Under the pieces are notes generated by a model. The model made no database searches, had not been told where the DNA came from, and saw only the letters and a list, made by a program, of their open reading frames with translations. A stretch of DNA of 11,297 bases. It comes from Candidatus Aenigmatarchaeota archaeon (GTDB lineage: Archaea > Aenigmatarchaeota > Aenigmatarchaeia > PWEA01 > JACRMZ01). Shown piece after piece: positions 818 through 11,158 of the stretch; the first letter of the stretch is position 1, and each line of letters starts with the position of its first letter. Made by a program: the position numbers and the translations under genes. The stretch covers positions 5,816 through 17,112 of the forward strand of contig JACRMZ010000035.1 of assembly GCA_016219455.1 (NCBI GenBank). Direction: 5' to 3'.

Positions 818-820
818 CCT

Positions 821-828
821 TTTATAAT
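821..828 (+). promoter_or_regulatory. TATA box (TTTATAAT) for retropepsin-like/RimK unit
   Basis: TTTATAAT is centred about 24 nt before the ATG at 848. It lies in the 30-nt gap after the stop at 815-817. The spacing predicts transcription starting at or next to the start codon (leaderless). Confidence 0.6.
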
Positions 829-847
829 CATCGCCTTATTGCTTGCT

Positions 848-1158
848 ATGCGCCTGAATCTTGTGGAACGCATAAAAATCATGGGAAGGGACGGCGAGTT
901 CCGGATTGAAGCCAAGGTTGGCTTGCAAAGCACTTGGGGATAGTTCCGGTGGGGAGGAAAGTGCGTGTCCTGACAGCTGCAATGAAGAGGCCAATAGAGC
1001 GCAGCCTTGCCAAGGCACGGATAGAGCTTAAGGGCGAGACGCATCGCGTCCTAGTCAGCCTTGAGAACAGGTCGCATATGAAATACAAGGCGATAATAGG
1101 GATGGATATCATTGGCCATTACAAGCTGATCTTCATACCAAAGGAGGACGCCACATGA
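848..1158 (+). pseudogene. Retropepsin-like (Zn_protease/RimB family) gene, frame-broken with the DTG active site missing
   Basis: Frame A starts at the ATG at 848 and reads VERIKIMGRDGEFRIEAKV, which resembles the N-terminal strands of RimK-associated retropepsin-like peptidases; it then stops at TAG 941-943. Frame B, read from about 920, gives LAKHLGIVPVGRKVRV and later NRSHMKY..IIGMDII, matching the family's C-terminal half, and ends in TGA 1156-1158. Family members normally have (K/V)xDTGAxxS between these two blocks. No frame here encodes that Asp-Thr-Gly, so a deletion whose length is not a multiple of three fits best. The stop overlaps the start of the RimK gene (ATGA), as in an intact operon. 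It may be a real pseudogene, an assembly error, or a shortened protein started from TTG 934. The family call is from motif memory. Confidence 0.65.
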
Positions 1159-2042
1159 AAAGGCTCCTTGTTCTTGCCCCGATAACAGAAGGGAAGAAAG
1201 TATCGTATACTGTAAAGAGGATACTTGAAGAGGGGAAAAAGAAATTCTCCGTTGACACGGCAGACATAAGCAAAACCGTGCTGAGGGTAAAGGGCGACGG
1301 CACTCCTGAAATAAAGTGCGGAAAACTTGACCTTTCCAAGTACGACTATGTCATACCCCGCATAGACTCGCCGAGAGCCTCGTATGGATACAACATAATC
1401 AGCTTCCTTGATTCCATAGGGATGAAAAAGCCGTATTCAGCAAAGACCGTGATAATAGGGCACAACAAATTCATGACACTCGTTGCGCTTAGGAAAGCAG
1501 GCGTCCGTGTCCCCGACACGGTGATGGTAAGTTCTGTGAAAGTTGCAAGAACTGTACTGGAAGCGTTCAAGTATCCGCTTCTGATAAAGCTTGTCACATC
1601 TTTTGGCGGCGAAGGCGTCTTCTACATAAGCTCGAGGGAAAGCGCAGAAAGCGTGATAAAAACGCTTCAGTTGATGAACATACAGATGATCATAGAGGAG
1701 TTCGTCCCCAATGCCGGCGAAGATATAAGGGGGTTTGTTGTCGGAAACCGCGTAATCGCGTCAATGAAAAGGGTGGCAAAGGAAGGTGAATACCGGGCCA
1801 ACGTCCATCTGGGCGGCAAGGCGGCGCCGTTTGAGTTGACCAAAGAGATGGATGAGATATGCGTTAAAGCGGCCGAAGCAACAGGCGCAAAGATATGCGC
1901 GATTGACATGCTTCAGGACAAGACCACAGGAAAACCGTACGTCATAGAAGTCAACACTAACCCTGGCATACAGGGAATTGAGGCAGCGACGGGGAAGAAC
2001 ATCGCAAAGGAGATAATAGACTTCGCGTATTCGGAATGCTAG
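1155..2042 (+). CDS. RimK-like ATP-grasp amino-acid ligase
   Basis: This 295-residue protein matches the RimK/LysX ATP-grasp family in length and motifs. RimK enzymes use ATP to join glutamate (or related amino acids) to a carboxyl end of a protein or cofactor. Visible features are the N-terminal domain ending in DYVIPRIDSP (64-73), ATP-contacting Lys105 and Lys145, the flexible glycine loop GGEG (151-154), IIEEFV (179-184), DIRGFVVG (190-197), the substrate/phosphate segment EGEYRANVHLGG (210-221), and Mg ligands Asp251, Glu265 and Asn267 in VIEVNTNPG. All expected catalytic residues seem present. It overlaps the preceding retropepsin-like reading frame by ATGA, so it depends on that transcript. 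The substrate cannot be told from sequence: ribosomal protein S6-type tails, coenzyme F420/tetrahydromethanopterin glutamylation and lysine-carrier chemistry are all family options. Confidence 0.88.
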   Translation: MKRLLVLAPITEGKKVSYTVKRILEEGKKKFSVDTADISKTVLRVKGDGTPEIKCGKLDLSKYDYVIPRIDSPRASYGYNIISFLDSIGMKKPYSAKTVIIGHNKFMTLVALRKAGVRVPDTVMVSSVKVARTVLEAFKYPLLIKLVTSFGGEGVFYISSRESAESVIKTLQLMNIQMIIEEFVPNAGEDIRGFVVGNRVIASMKRVAKEGEYRANVHLGGKAAPFELTKEMDEICVKAAEATGAKICAIDMLQDKTTGKPYVIEVNTNPGIQGIEAATGKNIAKEIIDFAYSEC

Positions 2043-2046
2043 CACG

Positions 2047-2057
2047 TTTTTATATAA
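2047..2057 (+). promoter_or_regulatory. TATA box for second RimK-like gene
   Basis: TTTTTATATAA lies right after the first RimK stop and is centred about 25 nt before the ATG at 2078. It is a near-ideal archaeal TATA element and predicts a leaderless transcript. The spacing also argues for the ATG at 2078 over any upstream in-frame codon. Confidence 0.75.
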
Positions 2058-2077
2058 CCCCCATCATTTTAGCTTCT

Positions 2078-2911
2078 ATGAAGTTCTGCGTTATCGGCCC
2101 TGAAAAAAAGAGGTTTGCTGAGGCAAAGCTGATAAACGAAGGGAAGAAAATCTTCGGGAACGCGCTCTACGTCCCCTACAGCAAGATACGGATAAGCATA
2201 AGCGACAGCGCAAACGTACTGTACGGTGATGTCAACCTCGCGGATTTTAATGCAATCATCCCGAGGATACCGGAGGACTGGATGTTTTCATACGTCCTCA
2301 TGAATTCTCTTTCCGGCGCGTATTCGCCGCTGGATACCATATCGTTCATCACGGGGAACAACAAGATACTCCTGTATGATGTGCTTATGAAAAGCGGCGT
2401 TAAGGTCCCAAAAGCCTGCCTTGCCGAATCACCAGAGTCTGCAGAAGAAGCGCTCAAGGAAATGAGCTATCCTATCGGCGTCCGGGCGGCAAACAGCAAA
2501 GAGATAAACATGTTCGCCCTCTCCAGGAAGGAAATCAGCCCTATGATAAACACCATAAGGCGGATGAAAAGTTCCATCTATCTTGAGGAGCGCCTGACAG
2601 ACTCCCTCATAAGGTGTTTTGTAATCGGAGACGAGATAATACCGTTGAAGCTCAACGCAGAGACGGAAGAGAAGTCGATGAAAGCTGAAGGCAAGTGGGA
2701 AACGGTAAAACTTGATTCAAAGACTGAACGGCTTGTTTTGAGGGCTTCTCGCGTCATAGGCGCAAGGATTTGCAGGGTTGATTTCAGGGAGAAAAGCGAG
2801 TCAGTTGTAAACGTAAACATCGTCCCGCCAATGAAGCTTTTTTCAAATGTTTCAGGGAAGAACATACCCAAGATTGCTGTGGAGTTCATGAAAAACGAGA
2901 TTAAACGCTAG
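2078..2911 (+). CDS. Degenerate RimK-like ATP-grasp paralogue, probable pseudoenzyme
   Basis: This 277-residue protein aligns along its length with the preceding RimK-like protein: FNAIIPRIPED (57-67) matches DYVIPRIDSP, GNNK (Lys96) matches GHNK, LIRCFVIG (177-184) matches DIRGFVVG, and the end GKNIPKIAVEF matches GKNIAKEIIDF. The chemistry looks lost. The second ATP lysine is Arg136, the glycine loop is replaced by SKEIN (140-144), the RANVHLGG segment is gone, and VIEVNTNPG has become VVNVNIVPP (243-251), so the metal-binding Glu is Asn. Asp235 remains. The open frame is intact and has its own strong TATA box, so it looks maintained. The likely role is a non-catalytic partner or a scaffold binding peptide or nucleotide. 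Weak residual activity cannot be excluded. Confidence 0.82.
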   Translation: MKFCVIGPEKKRFAEAKLINEGKKIFGNALYVPYSKIRISISDSANVLYGDVNLADFNAIIPRIPEDWMFSYVLMNSLSGAYSPLDTISFITGNNKILLYDVLMKSGVKVPKACLAESPESAEEALKEMSYPIGVRAANSKEINMFALSRKEISPMINTIRRMKSSIYLEERLTDSLIRCFVIGDEIIPLKLNAETEEKSMKAEGKWETVKLDSKTERLVLRASRVIGARICRVDFREKSESVVNVNIVPPMKLFSNVSGKNIPKIAVEFMKNEIKR

Positions 2912-7272: not shown

Positions 7273-8052
7273 ATGGCTGAATTACCTGTCCAGCAAGTCC
7301 GCTCACCAATGATTGAAGCGTGGAAGCAGAAGAAACGCATAAACGACAATCTCGCGAACGTTAAATTCAAGATAGCCGTCCTTTCCGGAAAAGGGGGCGT
7401 TGGAAAGACGACTGTGGCGGTAAACCTCGCAGCTGCACTTGTCAAACATGGCAAGTCCGTTGGGATACTGGACGCTGACATCGACTGCCCCAATGTGAAC
7501 AAAGTTCTGGGGATAAGCGAACTTTTCAGGGCAGTCCACGACAAGATTTTGCCGATTGAAAAGTATGGGATGAGGATCGTCAGCATGGCAAGCGTCCAGC
7601 AGGGCAACGACGTCCTGATATGGAGGGGCCCGATGCTCACGCATGCCATCCTTCAATTCCTCGAAATGGTCGAATGGGGAAACCTTGACTATCTTATAAT
7701 AGACCTTCCGCCTGGGACAAGCGATGCCCCGCTGACTGTCATGCAAAGCTCCAGCCTAGATGGCGCAATCATAGTGACTACGCCGCAGCCTGTTGCAAAT
7801 GCCAAAAAGGCCGCGAAGATGGCAAAGCAGCTCAACGTCAAGGTCCTTGGGATAGTCGAGAATATGGCCGGTGACGTGTTTGGAAGGGGTGGTGGAAGCG
7901 AAGCCGCCAAAGAGCTTGGCGTTCCTCTCCTGACAACAATAGAACTCAGGAAGGAAGTGCGGGACTATTCGGACAATGGCATTCCTCCGGCAATAAAAGA
8001 CTCTAAAACGCTGGAGAACTTCGAGGAAATCATCGCCAAAATGAAGCTCTAG
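7273..8052 (+). CDS. Mrp/Nbp35-type P-loop ATPase lacking the CxxC motif
   Basis: This is a 259-residue SIMIBI-class ATPase. It has a short N-terminal helix (QKKRINDNLANV), deviant Walker A SGKGGVGKTT (38-47), switch I DADIDCPN (67-74), RGPM (118-121), and DLPPGTSD (144-151). These match the Mrp/ApbC/Nbp35 carriers that hold and transfer Fe-S clusters. The family normally has a Cys-x-x-Cys between ENM and the FGxGGG stretch, which bridges a 4Fe-4S cluster across the dimer. Here GIVENMAGDVFGRGGG (193-208) runs straight through, with about ten residues absent. Cys72 is the only cysteine I find. Nucleotide binding should be intact, but standard cluster binding cannot be. The MIP18 gene upstream still ties it to Fe-S biology. 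Confidence 0.9.
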   Translation: MAELPVQQVRSPMIEAWKQKKRINDNLANVKFKIAVLSGKGGVGKTTVAVNLAAALVKHGKSVGILDADIDCPNVNKVLGISELFRAVHDKILPIEKYGMRIVSMASVQQGNDVLIWRGPMLTHAILQFLEMVEWGNLDYLIIDLPPGTSDAPLTVMQSSSLDGAIIVTTPQPVANAKKAAKMAKQLNVKVLGIVENMAGDVFGRGGGSEAAKELGVPLLTTIELRKEVRDYSDNGIPPAIKDSKTLENFEEIIAKMKL

Positions 8053-8080: not shown

Positions 8081-8854
8081 GTGGGAATTTCTATCGGCGT
8101 TGCCAGCGGCAAGGGAGGCGTGGGAAAGACGACCACTGTCCTCAACATAGGGGCTTCGCTTCATTCCCTTGGGAAATCAGTTGTTCTTGTTGATGCCAAT
8201 CTTGAGGCAGCGGACTTGAGCCTTTATCTCGGGGACATAAGCTATGACAAGACGCTTTTCGATGTTCTCTGCGGCGGGTCAAATATCAGCGATGTTTTCA
8301 TAAGCCAGCAGCACGGCCTCAAGATCGTTCCAGGCCCACTCGGGATTTTGGAGGAAACGGGCCTTGAAAACCTTAAGGTGCACATAGACTCGCTGAAGGA
8401 AAACCACGACTTTGTCATTGTGGATATTTCCCCGGGAACAGGAAAGCACGTCCGCGACTCAATCAGGGCGTGCGATGAAATAATCATAGTCACAGTTCCC
8501 CAGCTGCCAGCAGTGACGGACGCGAGAAAGATAATGGAACTTGCTTCACAGGAACGTGTCCCCATAAAGGGTCTCGTTGTCAATGCTGTTGGCAGGGGCA
8601 AAAACGAGCTGTCTTCAGACGATATCGCCGACTTCTGCCGTGCCGAGGTGATAGGAAGCATACCAGAAGACAGGGAAGTCTGCTCTTCTGTTGACAGGCT
8701 GACGCCAGTAATCTTCATGAACCCCAAATCCCGGGCAGCAGAAAACTTCGCTAAAATTTCTTCGTCAATCGCTTCCATACCCTACGAGAAACGCGCTGGT
8801 TTCTTGGGGCGCCTGAACGAAGCCATAAGGTACATAATCTCGGGAAAGATTTAG
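8081..8854 (+). CDS. MinD/ParA-like ATPase
   Basis: This 257-residue protein is translated from GTG, chosen because it gives the normal MinD N-terminus (GISIGVASGKGGVGKTT) and sits about 24 nt after a TATA element; no ATG is available nearby. It has deviant Walker A KGGVGKTT (11-18) with signature Lys11, VDANLEAADLSLYLG (37-51) and the Walker B/switch II region VIVDISPGTGK (112-122). The C-terminus GFLGRLNEAIRYIISGKI (240-257) looks like an amphipathic helix similar in placement to MinD's membrane-targeting sequence. Archaeal MinD-like proteins position chemotaxis or motility machinery, or act in other spatial roles; no MinE, FtsZ or Soj partner is visible. It may be a second member of the ATPase family placed beside the Mrp gene by tandem duplication. 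Confidence 0.88.
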   Translation: MGISIGVASGKGGVGKTTTVLNIGASLHSLGKSVVLVDANLEAADLSLYLGDISYDKTLFDVLCGGSNISDVFISQQHGLKIVPGPLGILEETGLENLKVHIDSLKENHDFVIVDISPGTGKHVRDSIRACDEIIIVTVPQLPAVTDARKIMELASQERVPIKGLVVNAVGRGKNELSSDDIADFCRAEVIGSIPEDREVCSSVDRLTPVIFMNPKSRAAENFAKISSSIASIPYEKRAGFLGRLNEAIRYIISGKI

Positions 8855-8887: not shown

Positions 8888-10600
8888 ATGATTCGCCAAC
8901 CCATAGTCGTTGTCATGGGCCACGTTGACCATGGGAAGACGACGCTTCTTGATGGCATCAGGAAAAGCACTGTCGCCGCGAAGGAGGCAGGCCTTATAAC
9001 CCAGCACATAGGAGCTACAGAGGTCCCGATAGAGTCCATAAAAAAGCTCTGCGGGTCGATGATGGACACCGATAAGATAAAGATCCCGGGCCTCCTTTTC
9101 CTTGACACGCCTGGCCATGAGGCGTTCACGACATTGAGGAAGCGGGGGAGCAGCATAGCTGACCTTGCAATCCTTATTGTGGATATCAAAGAAGGCATAA
9201 TGCCCCAGACAGAGGAAAGCATAATGCTTCTCAAAGAGTACAAGACGCCGTTTTTGGTGGCTGCAAACAAGATAGACAGATTGGGGTGGAAAAGCCACGG
9301 GAGCTTCCGGCAGTCGGTTGAAAAACAACCTCAGGAAATAATGGAAAGCGTTGACAATGCCATATACACTCTCATGGGCAAACTGTCCGAGCGCGGTTTT
9401 GATGCCGACAGGTTTGACCGCGTCAGGGACTTCCGGAAAACCGTGGCAATAGTCCCGGTTTCGGGGATGCTGGGATTTGGCATTCCGGAGTTGGTAGCAA
9501 TGCTAGTCGGCCTTAGCCAGCAATTCCTCAAAGACGCACTTGACGTAGAGCAAGGAATGGGAAAGGGCAGCATACTCGAGGTCAAAGAGGTCAAGGGGCT
9601 TGGGGTTGCCATCGACGCTATACTCTATGATGGCAGCATGAAAGAGGGGGATTATATTGTGATTGGGGGCAAGAACCCGATTGTTGCCAATATCCGCTCG
9701 CTTCTCAAGCCGCCGCCTTTGGGGGAAATGCGTGTTGAGAAGAAATTTCAGCGCGTTAAAATCGTGAATGCGGCATCAGGGATAAAGATCTCTGCCACAG
9801 GCCTTGAGAACGCAATAGCAGGCATGCCTTTCCGCGCAACGCCTGACAAGCAGCTTCTTGAGAAACTGAAAGAAGAGCTCAGGGAGCAGGTGACGGAAGC
9901 AGAAATAGAAGAACCCACGGACGGAGCAACGATAAAGGCCGATACGCTGGGAAGCCTTGAGGCAATCGTCAAAATACTCAGAGCAAAGGATGTGCCGATA
10001 AAGCGCGCGCGAATCGGCAGCGTTACACGGAAAGACGTCATGGAAATAAAGTCAATGCCAGAAGACAAGCGCATCATATTCGCATTCAATGTCCCAGTCC
10101 TCAAGGACGCCGAAGCGGAGGCAATGGGTGACGTCAAGATGTTCAGGAGCAACATCATCTACGAGCTTCTTGACGAATACGAGAAGTGGATTGGCAACTG
10201 GGAAGAAGAGCGCGACAAGGCGACGCTTGAACATGTCATACTTCCGGGAAAATTCCGGTTCCTCAATGGCTATGTGTTCAGGCAAAGGAAGCCCGCCATA
10301 ATCGGCGTTGAAGTTGAAAATGGCACCATACGCACAGGATACCATGTGATGAAAGACGGCAAGACTATAGGAAGAATCGTTGACATACAGAAAGAAGGCA
10401 AGAGTGTCGGCGAGGCAAAAAAAGGCGAGCAGGTGGCATTGAGCATTGACGGCCCGACTGTCGGCAGGCAGATAAACGAAGGCGATGTCCTATTCAACCG
10501 CATCGGGAGCGAAGACCGGAGAACGCTTGAAGAGCACAAGAAGTCGCTCAAGCATGGGGAAGCCGAGGTTCTAGAGGAACTCGATAAAATGGGCTATTAA
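8888..10600 (+). CDS. infB: Translation initiation factor aIF5B (IF2-like GTPase)
   Basis: This 570-residue factor promotes subunit joining and initiator-tRNA placement at the ribosome. The G domain starts at residue 1 with no N-terminal extension: G1 GHVDHGKTTL (11-20), G2 region ITQHIGATEV (37-46), G3 DTPGHEAF (73-80), G4 NKIDR (127-131) and G5-like VPVSG. Domain II begins near residue 224 (GKGSILEVKEVKGLG), domain III near 346 (ATIKADTLGSLEAIVKIL), and domain IV near 447 (HVILPGKFRF) and ends in a helical tail (LEELDKMGY). Length and order match archaeal/eukaryotic IF5B cores. There is no intein, although some archaeal copies carry one. The EndA gene follows after 24 nt. Confidence 0.97.
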   Translation: MIRQPIVVVMGHVDHGKTTLLDGIRKSTVAAKEAGLITQHIGATEVPIESIKKLCGSMMDTDKIKIPGLLFLDTPGHEAFTTLRKRGSSIADLAILIVDIKEGIMPQTEESIMLLKEYKTPFLVAANKIDRLGWKSHGSFRQSVEKQPQEIMESVDNAIYTLMGKLSERGFDADRFDRVRDFRKTVAIVPVSGMLGFGIPELVAMLVGLSQQFLKDALDVEQGMGKGSILEVKEVKGLGVAIDAILYDGSMKEGDYIVIGGKNPIVANIRSLLKPPPLGEMRVEKKFQRVKIVNAASGIKISATGLENAIAGMPFRATPDKQLLEKLKEELREQVTEAEIEEPTDGATIKADTLGSLEAIVKILRAKDVPIKRARIGSVTRKDVMEIKSMPEDKRIIFAFNVPVLKDAEAEAMGDVKMFRSNIIYELLDEYEKWIGNWEEERDKATLEHVILPGKFRFLNGYVFRQRKPAIIGVEVENGTIRTGYHVMKDGKTIGRIVDIQKEGKSVGEAKKGEQVALSIDGPTVGRQINEGDVLFNRIGSEDRRTLEEHKKSLKHGEAEVLEELDKMGY

Positions 10601-10624: not shown

Positions 10625-11158
10625 ATGATAACGGGCGAGTTTGTAAACAACGAAGTCGTCGTTTTCGGGAAGGCAGAAAGCGAGGAGGTGTACGGCATAG
10701 GCACCTACGGAAAGATAAAGGATGATAACCTTGTCCTCAGCCTCTGCGAAGCGCTTCACCTTGTCGAACGCGGCAAGATAAAAATAAAGATTGCCAAAAA
10801 GGAGGCGCCAAAGGAAGATTTGTACAAACTGTTTTCAGAGTCTGACAAGGAGTTCACGCAGAAATATGCCGTTTACAAAGACTTGAGGGAGCGCGGCTTC
10901 CTTGTTAGGACGGGTTTTAAATTCGGCACGCACTTTCGGGTTTACGACCGCGGAGTCGAGATGAAGAAAGGGCCAAAAGCCCCGACAGAACACACGAAGT
11001 GGATTGTGCATGCTGTTCCGGAGGGGTTTACATGCAGCTACCAGGAGCTTTCCCGTGCCGTACGTTTAGCGCACAACATAAGGGCAAAGATGCTTTGGGC
11101 AATCGTTGACGAAGAAAAAGACGTGACTTATTACAAGATAGAAAGGATTACGCCTTGA
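10625..11158 (+). CDS. endA: tRNA-splicing endonuclease EndA
   Basis: This 177-residue enzyme cuts introns from precursor tRNAs at bulge-helix-bulge sites. The C-terminal nuclease domain carries the full catalytic set: Tyr107 in THFRVYDRG, His123 in PTEHTKWIV and Lys155 in HNIRAKMLWAIVDEE. YAVYKDLRERGFLVRTGFKFG (81-101) is the typical segment before the tyrosine. The N-terminal half (1-75) is the smaller recognition domain. A single unit of about 180 residues fits the homotetrameric (alpha4) type rather than the fused dimeric types, although an unlinked partner subunit elsewhere cannot be ruled out. It sits 24 nt downstream of aIF5B, a neighbourhood of RNA and translation genes. Confidence 0.95.
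   Translation: MITGEFVNNEVVVFGKAESEEVYGIGTYGKIKDDNLVLSLCEALHLVERGKIKIKIAKKEAPKEDLYKLFSESDKEFTQKYAVYKDLRERGFLVRTGFKFGTHFRVYDRGVEMKKGPKAPTEHTKWIVHAVPEGFTCSYQELSRAVRLAHNIRAKMLWAIVDEEKDVTYYKIERITP

Follow-up and report, generated by a model that had tools for sequence, protein, structure and literature searches.

Gene content of the locus

The window, by which we mean the whole stretch of 11,297 nucleotides that was analysed, lies on contig C23 of a host genome of 866 kb in 121 contigs that is 65% complete. It holds two RimK-family genes, A and B, whose reading frames are both intact and whose products are 26% identical; searches with either one found no further A-like or B-like place in this 65% complete assembly. 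The features of the locus are collected in Table 1. Codes beginning with G, C, L and f denote genomes, contigs, loci and families, respectively.

Table 1. Features of the window, in window coordinates.
Feature	Position	Strand	Remark
TATA-like stretch TTTTATAATC	820..829	+	about 18 nt upstream of the relic ATG at 848; no exact consensus match
PF05618 retropepsin-like peptidase relic	848..1158	+	3' end overlaps the start of gene A
Gene A, RimK-family ATP-grasp ligase, 295 aa	1155..2042	+	11 of 11 scored catalytic positions
Archaeal TATA-box sequence TTTATATA, exact	2049..2056	+	precedes gene B; putative promoter
Gene B, full-length RimK paralogue (pseudoligase), 277 aa	2078..2911	+	alternative longest-frame start at 2036
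Mrp-type and MinD-type ATPases	7273-8052, 8081-8854		ordinary archaeal genes
aIF5B-like GTPase (presumed, as judged from sequence alone)	8888-10600		ordinary archaeal gene
tRNA-intron lyase EndA	10625-11158		ordinary archaeal gene

Gene A matched the ATP-grasp domain PF08443 at an E-value of 9e-42 and scored 184.3 bits against TIGR00768, the model for the RimK subfamily, above its curated cut-off of 143.4. Among the 25 of 43 families listed, A fell under every equivalog cut-off (MptN, 159.4 bits against 350; E. coli RimK, 147.8 against 331; LysX, 135.2 against 275.6; CofF, 92 against 300). Gene B also exceeded the PF08443 cut-off (45.8 bits against 21), and with 65.8 bits against TIGR00768 it lies below 143.4 and therefore outside the RimK subfamily as that model defines it; its match to the RimK pre-ATP-grasp domain was likewise below cut-off.

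The initial annotation had credited B with an intact frame and one of the strongest TATA boxes in the window, and both statements hold: the box is the single exact copy of TTTATATA on either strand, where mononucleotide shuffles predict 0.13 copies per strand. As 21 nt separate it from the ATG at 2078, this start is favoured over that of the longest frame, and translation of B probably begins there. The TTTTATAATC stretch is a possible promoter for the peptidase relic together with gene A.

Gene B lacks the standard ligase active site

Numbered from 2078, B retains the fold landmarks IPRI (61), GNNK (93), IRCFVIG (178) and GKNI (260), and carries Arg at residue 136 and Asn at residue 245, where A has the ATP lysine and the metal-binding Glu, respectively. 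The glycine loop is gone, both of its scored glycines being absent, and the RANVHLGG segment is degraded, with its Asn and one Gly missing. In all these respects the earlier description of B as a full-length, inactive-looking paralogue was borne out, and the Asp of the DIR motif is absent as well.

To compare proteins, 11 positions were scored on a RimK alignment (A numbering: K105, K145, G152, G154, D190, R192, N216, G220, D251, E265 and N267). By alignment mapping, K145 and N216 correspond to ADP contacts of Pseudomonas RimK, and R192 and N267 to its contacts with the glutamate chain, according to the structural study (PMC10092738). The window's B keeps four of the 11 (K105, R192, D251 and N267) and is therefore not blank everywhere.

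Across genomes, all 89 A proteins carried 11 of 11 positions and all 71 B proteins carried 0 to 4, a separation to be read with the caveat that the A and B labels came from whole-protein profile scores to which the scored residues themselves contribute. Among the 89 are two copies from G129 and three members of a third RimK type, namely that of G045 and the second copies of G122 and G137. The count excludes proteins that scored below the limits or did not exceed 200 aa in length (the B fragments from G149 and G123 are examples), an additional RimK found in G174 and the five proteins of f10. Thus B lacks the standard ligase active site, and the residue set of a competent RimK (ATP lysine, glycine loop, DIR, RxN..GG and the D/E/N residues) is incomplete in it.

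The f10 proteins are lone RimK-like proteins (L054, L055, L056, L057 and L138) that keep 5 of the 11 positions; the glycine loop, ATP lysine, N216 and D251 are retained, and DIR, E265 and N267 are gone. Gene A was not found in their genomes, and we leave them unplaced, as either an intermediate or a different pseudoenzyme.

A and B occur together in Aenigmatarchaeota and beyond

With B alone as query, matches were found in 23 of 60 relatives, and with 18 aligned B proteins in 72 of 156 phylum genomes, many of them weak; a scan of named genomes with 15 related B proteins returned 23 loci, titled Candidatus Aenigmatarchaeota (21), "archaeon" (1) and Nanoarchaeota (1). The stronger matches were fetched, their proteins typed and the genomes then classed by hand. 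Of the 156 phylum genomes, 43 carry both genes (including G123, whose B is a contig-end fragment), 4 carry A only, 3 carry B only and 106 carry neither, and the seven single-gene genomes are all incomplete (64-85%). Fisher's test for this co-occurrence gave p 4e-30, a value that is indicative only, since the genomes are related. The initial annotation had proposed conserved pairing as a check, and relatives do carry both genes with intact B frames in the fetched set: a dead paralogue is conserved with an active partner.

A and B lie on a common fetched stretch in 27 of the 43 pair genomes, four of which (G022, G039, G049 and G123) have intervening genes or a fragment. They lie on different stretches in the remaining 16, comprising 11 genomes of f18 together with G055, G027, G059, G124 and G152, where short contigs may mask linkage. 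We counted 49 adjacent same-strand pairs, 38 in the order B-A and 11 in the order A-B. Spacing was 20 nt or less in 43 of these 49 and the genes overlapped in 36, although longest-frame starts inflate the overlap counts, and the window was scored as overlapping solely through the start at 2036.

A search of 392 relatives gave strong matches in 129, of which 73 lie outside the phylum; these matches and the pairs fetched from among them rule out a pair restricted to one phylum. Thirty-nine of the 73 were fetched. Both genes were present in 27 of the 39, which is not an unbiased rate because genomes were picked for two matches or high scores; the pair is adjacent in 26 and on separate contigs in G355. 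The 27 span 12 family codes (f44, f49, f50, f51, f75, f77, f101, f103, f111, f117, f124 and f125), of which f49 appears to be Nanohaloarchaea, with G193 as Ca. Nanohalobium constans. Another 11 of the 39 carry A only, counting G302, which had a second match beyond the fetched set, and a retropepsin-like gene lies nearby in 9 of these 11; G192 yielded no typed protein.

Origin and selection

In an IQ-TREE analysis of 54 rows, a branch with support 95/97 that recurred in 94% of 200 bootstrap trees set all 23 B rows apart. A 71-row quick tree with 30 B rows supported the B clade at 98, and one restricted to the phylum at just 80. Several groups recur in both the A and the B halves of the 71-row tree: f50 with G030, G044, G079 and G091; f44, f75, f101 and f124; f51, f103, f111 and f117; and f49, f125 and G004. 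Family f77, which has a long B branch, is placed differently in the two halves. These trees suggest that the pair stems from one old duplication, with good, not absolute, support.

The correlation between A and B distances over 69 genomes is r 0.92, a value that none of the 2000 shuffles used for comparison reached and to which shared descent alone contributes part. The nearest neighbour is identical in the A and B trees for 43 of the 69 genomes, and B is the more divergent protein (mean tree distance 3.33, against 2.42 for A). NG86 dN/dS was computable in five of eight genome pairs for B (0.102, 0.058, 0.091, 0.105 and 0.075) and in seven of eight for A (0.023-0.089), with dS below 1 for both genes in just two of the eight. 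Where computable, the B values are thus far under 1, as expected under the selection on B that the dN/dS check had been meant to detect. Homologues 90 and 92% identical to the window's B are full length, and B motifs of its own are conserved within the f7/f14/f18 group. A and B are largely co-inherited and both under purifying selection where measurable, and the ligase-pseudoligase pair kept by selection, as the initial annotation had proposed, is supported.

Hydrolase, MscS-like and other neighbours

Hydrolase genes often lie near the A/B pair. The window pair had been described as lying beside a peptidase, a description that fails for an intact gene: the sequence is a frame-broken, PF05618-like relic, with an N-terminal piece in one frame, a C-terminal half in another and the DTG motif absent, and it scored 14.8 bits (E 0.028) against a PF05618 cut-off of 27. 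The break is either a true loss or an assembly error. An intact retropepsin gene adjoining rimK, as in the RimB-RimK arrangement, is thus missing from the window and found in relatives. PF05618 occurs in 35 of the 156 phylum genomes, 33 of which carry A and/or B, and in 15 of the 35 it directly adjoins A by coordinates, at the position that the relic occupies in the window.

Some lineages that lack a PF05618 match carry other hydrolase-like genes. Members of one family, A6 (about 290 aa; L046, L093-L095, L097, L098 and L180), directly adjoin A in six phylum genomes and five f50 genomes; A6 occurs in 7 of the 156 phylum genomes, 6 of which carry both A and B. A second family, A7 (about 331 aa; L036, L044 and others), occurs in 33 of the 156, 30 of which carry A and/or B. 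Both contain motifs that we take to be N-formylglutamate-amidohydrolase-like. Identification as N-formylglutamate amidohydrolases was rejected, as the likeness is at the level of motifs and profile searches gave nothing secure, whether in Pfam (A6 and one A7 member), NCBIfam (A7) or PDB sequences (both). The FGase model PF05013 had no match in 6 genomes at E up to 10, and one f50 A6 member reached 17.1 bits (E 0.0065) against a curated cut-off of 28.9. Aligned with hhalign, A6 and A7 gave a probability of 9% (E 0.0037). One contig (G098:C16, locus L163) bears two A7 genes and an A6 fragment in a genome with no A or B match of any strength.

Of the 46 phylum genomes that carry B, 25 have an MscS-like gene as the immediate same-strand neighbour of B, recognised in 24 by profile and in one (a G011 fragment) by cluster. 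Among the 11 f18 genomes with A elsewhere, it still adjoins B in 10. Outside the phylum, the profile placed such a gene next to B in 8 of 27 genomes and Pfam did so in G174, and in three f75 genomes it adjoins A. Pfam also identified a C39 peptidase domain fused to MscS-like sequence beside B in G004, G172 and G174.

Translation genes lie near the pairs L173 (G172), L174 (G193), L051 (G004) and L037 (G022), namely those for aIF2 gamma and S6e (f49), EF-2, S7 and S12 (f5) and EF-1 alpha (f14), which may be chance. In f49, a glutamate-cysteine-ligase-like gene of the GCS2 family (PF04107) follows A, and a YheCD-like ATP-grasp gene is nearby in G172.

A proposed two-subunit ligase and its alternatives

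We think it probable, though well short of certain, that A and B together form a single hetero-oligomeric amino-acid ligase of the RimK type, in which A is the catalytic subunit and B a non-catalytic one. A mixed oligomer is the simplest reading of a closely spaced, co-inherited paralogue that is catalytically dead. The solved RimK proteins are tetramers in which two dimers associate and the glutamate sites lie at the core, according to the structural work (PMC10092738), so B would be expected to occupy the place of some A protomers. A would attach to an acceptor an amino acid that is probably glutamate, and B would stabilise or activate A, for which the prozyme of trypanosome AdoMetDC is a precedent (PMC5201418); B may also dock the acceptor or a membrane partner, namely the MscS-like protein. 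A hydrolase would then remove the product, a retropepsin in many lineages and possibly an FGase-like protein or C39 domain in others. Counting against an A:B oligomer are the 16 of 43 genomes in which the genes lie on different fetched stretches, with B keeping its MscS-like neighbour in 10 of the 11 from f18, the 4 A-only and 3 B-only genomes, the f77 discordance and the agreement of nearest neighbours in just 43 of 69 genomes.

The idea that B is a decaying duplicate could draw on its lost catalytic residues and greater divergence (3.33 against 2.42), and we give it scarcely any credence: its one old origin, full-length frames in many families, dN/dS of 0.058-0.105 where computable and its own motifs in f7/f14/f18 contradict it. 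Nor is B likely to be alive with a changed reaction in a rearranged site (for example, with Asp and an Asn-x-Glu pair where Glu-x-Asn would stand and with Arg substituting for Lys), which we hold to be quite improbable. Phylum B proteins do keep D251 in 25 of 44 and show Asn for E265 in 23, Glu for N267 in 14 and Arg for K145 in 29, and such substitution patterns recur within the f7/f14/f18 group. However, none of the 44 phylum B proteins retains N216 or D190, and outside the phylum neither D251 nor E265 survives in any of the 27, so that no alternative site is common to the B clade.

The MscS-like neighbours invite the proposal that B is a RimK-derived cytosolic sensor or docking domain for the MscS-like protein, sharing just ancestry and regulation with A. 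We consider it unlikely, even though 25 of 46 phylum genomes show this neighbourhood, including 10 of the 11 f18 genomes with A elsewhere, as do 8 of 27 genomes plus G174 outside the phylum. In 21 of the 46 the MscS-like gene was not seen directly beside B, B occurs without A in just 3 of 46, the two genes adjoin in 49 loci, often overlapping, and in f75 the MscS-like gene adjoins A. The nature of the product is a separate matter: that the pair makes a small peptide or a cofactor side chain and not a protein tag is a serious possibility, though not the likelier one, and is compatible with the subunit reading. It is favoured by the GCS2-family gene after A in f49, the YheCD-like gene in G172, the scores of A below all equivalog cut-offs among the models listed and the extension of the methylofuran polyglutamate side chain by the RimK homologue MyfB (PMC8141765). 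Against it, one member of the partner retropepsin family is RimB, an enzyme that removes glutamates from the protein RpsF (PMC11957791).

Returning to the hetero-oligomer of A and B, we put forward tentatively, as an extension that is doubtful as a whole, that B couples this amidoligase to the MscS-like protein, such that membrane or osmotic state would control the writing of a glutamate-type tag or peptide, with interchangeable hydrolases to erase it.

Relation to known systems

Four known systems bear comparison. RimK with RimB, in the rimABK system of Pseudomonas (PMC11957791, PMC10092738), likewise combines a RimK-family ligase with a retropepsin-like partner gene, and its ligase is similarly regulated by a partner protein; that ligase is a homotetramer whose known target is RpsF, whereas the archaeal locus has a conserved dead RimK paralogue, and the window's retropepsin is a broken one. 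The RloABC system found in Pseudomonas aeruginosa (PMC12239564), which is linked to hypo-osmotic stress, also encodes an ATP-grasp protein, a retropepsin and a membrane protein together, but its inactive component is a transglutaminase-like membrane protein, whereas in the archaea the ATP-grasp paralogue is inactive and an MscS-like gene encodes the membrane protein. Branch 8 graspetide loci (PMC8939145) pair an ATP-grasp ligase with a second, catalytically inactive ATP-grasp protein; the latter is truncated to two N-terminal domains, in contrast to the full-length, RimK-family B. The trypanosome AdoMetDC-prozyme couple (PMC5201418) joins an active enzyme to a dead paralogous partner in an unrelated fold and reaction, with heterodimer and activation proven there and proposed here.

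In the literature searched (titles and abstract openings, with few subscription papers), we found no description of a full-length RimK pseudoligase, of a heteromeric RimK enzyme or of a membrane-coupled write/erase amidoligase system. Databases name B-type proteins "RimK family alpha-L-glutamate ligase", "ATP-grasp domain-containing protein" or "hypothetical protein". Many small-genomed archaea carry both A and B, often adjacent, which points to an unrecognised two-part enzyme. The pair also offers a deep natural experiment in how a duplicated ATP-grasp copy can turn partner rather than pseudogene. Should B prove to be a dead subunit, the active form of the enzyme in these archaea would be a heteromer.
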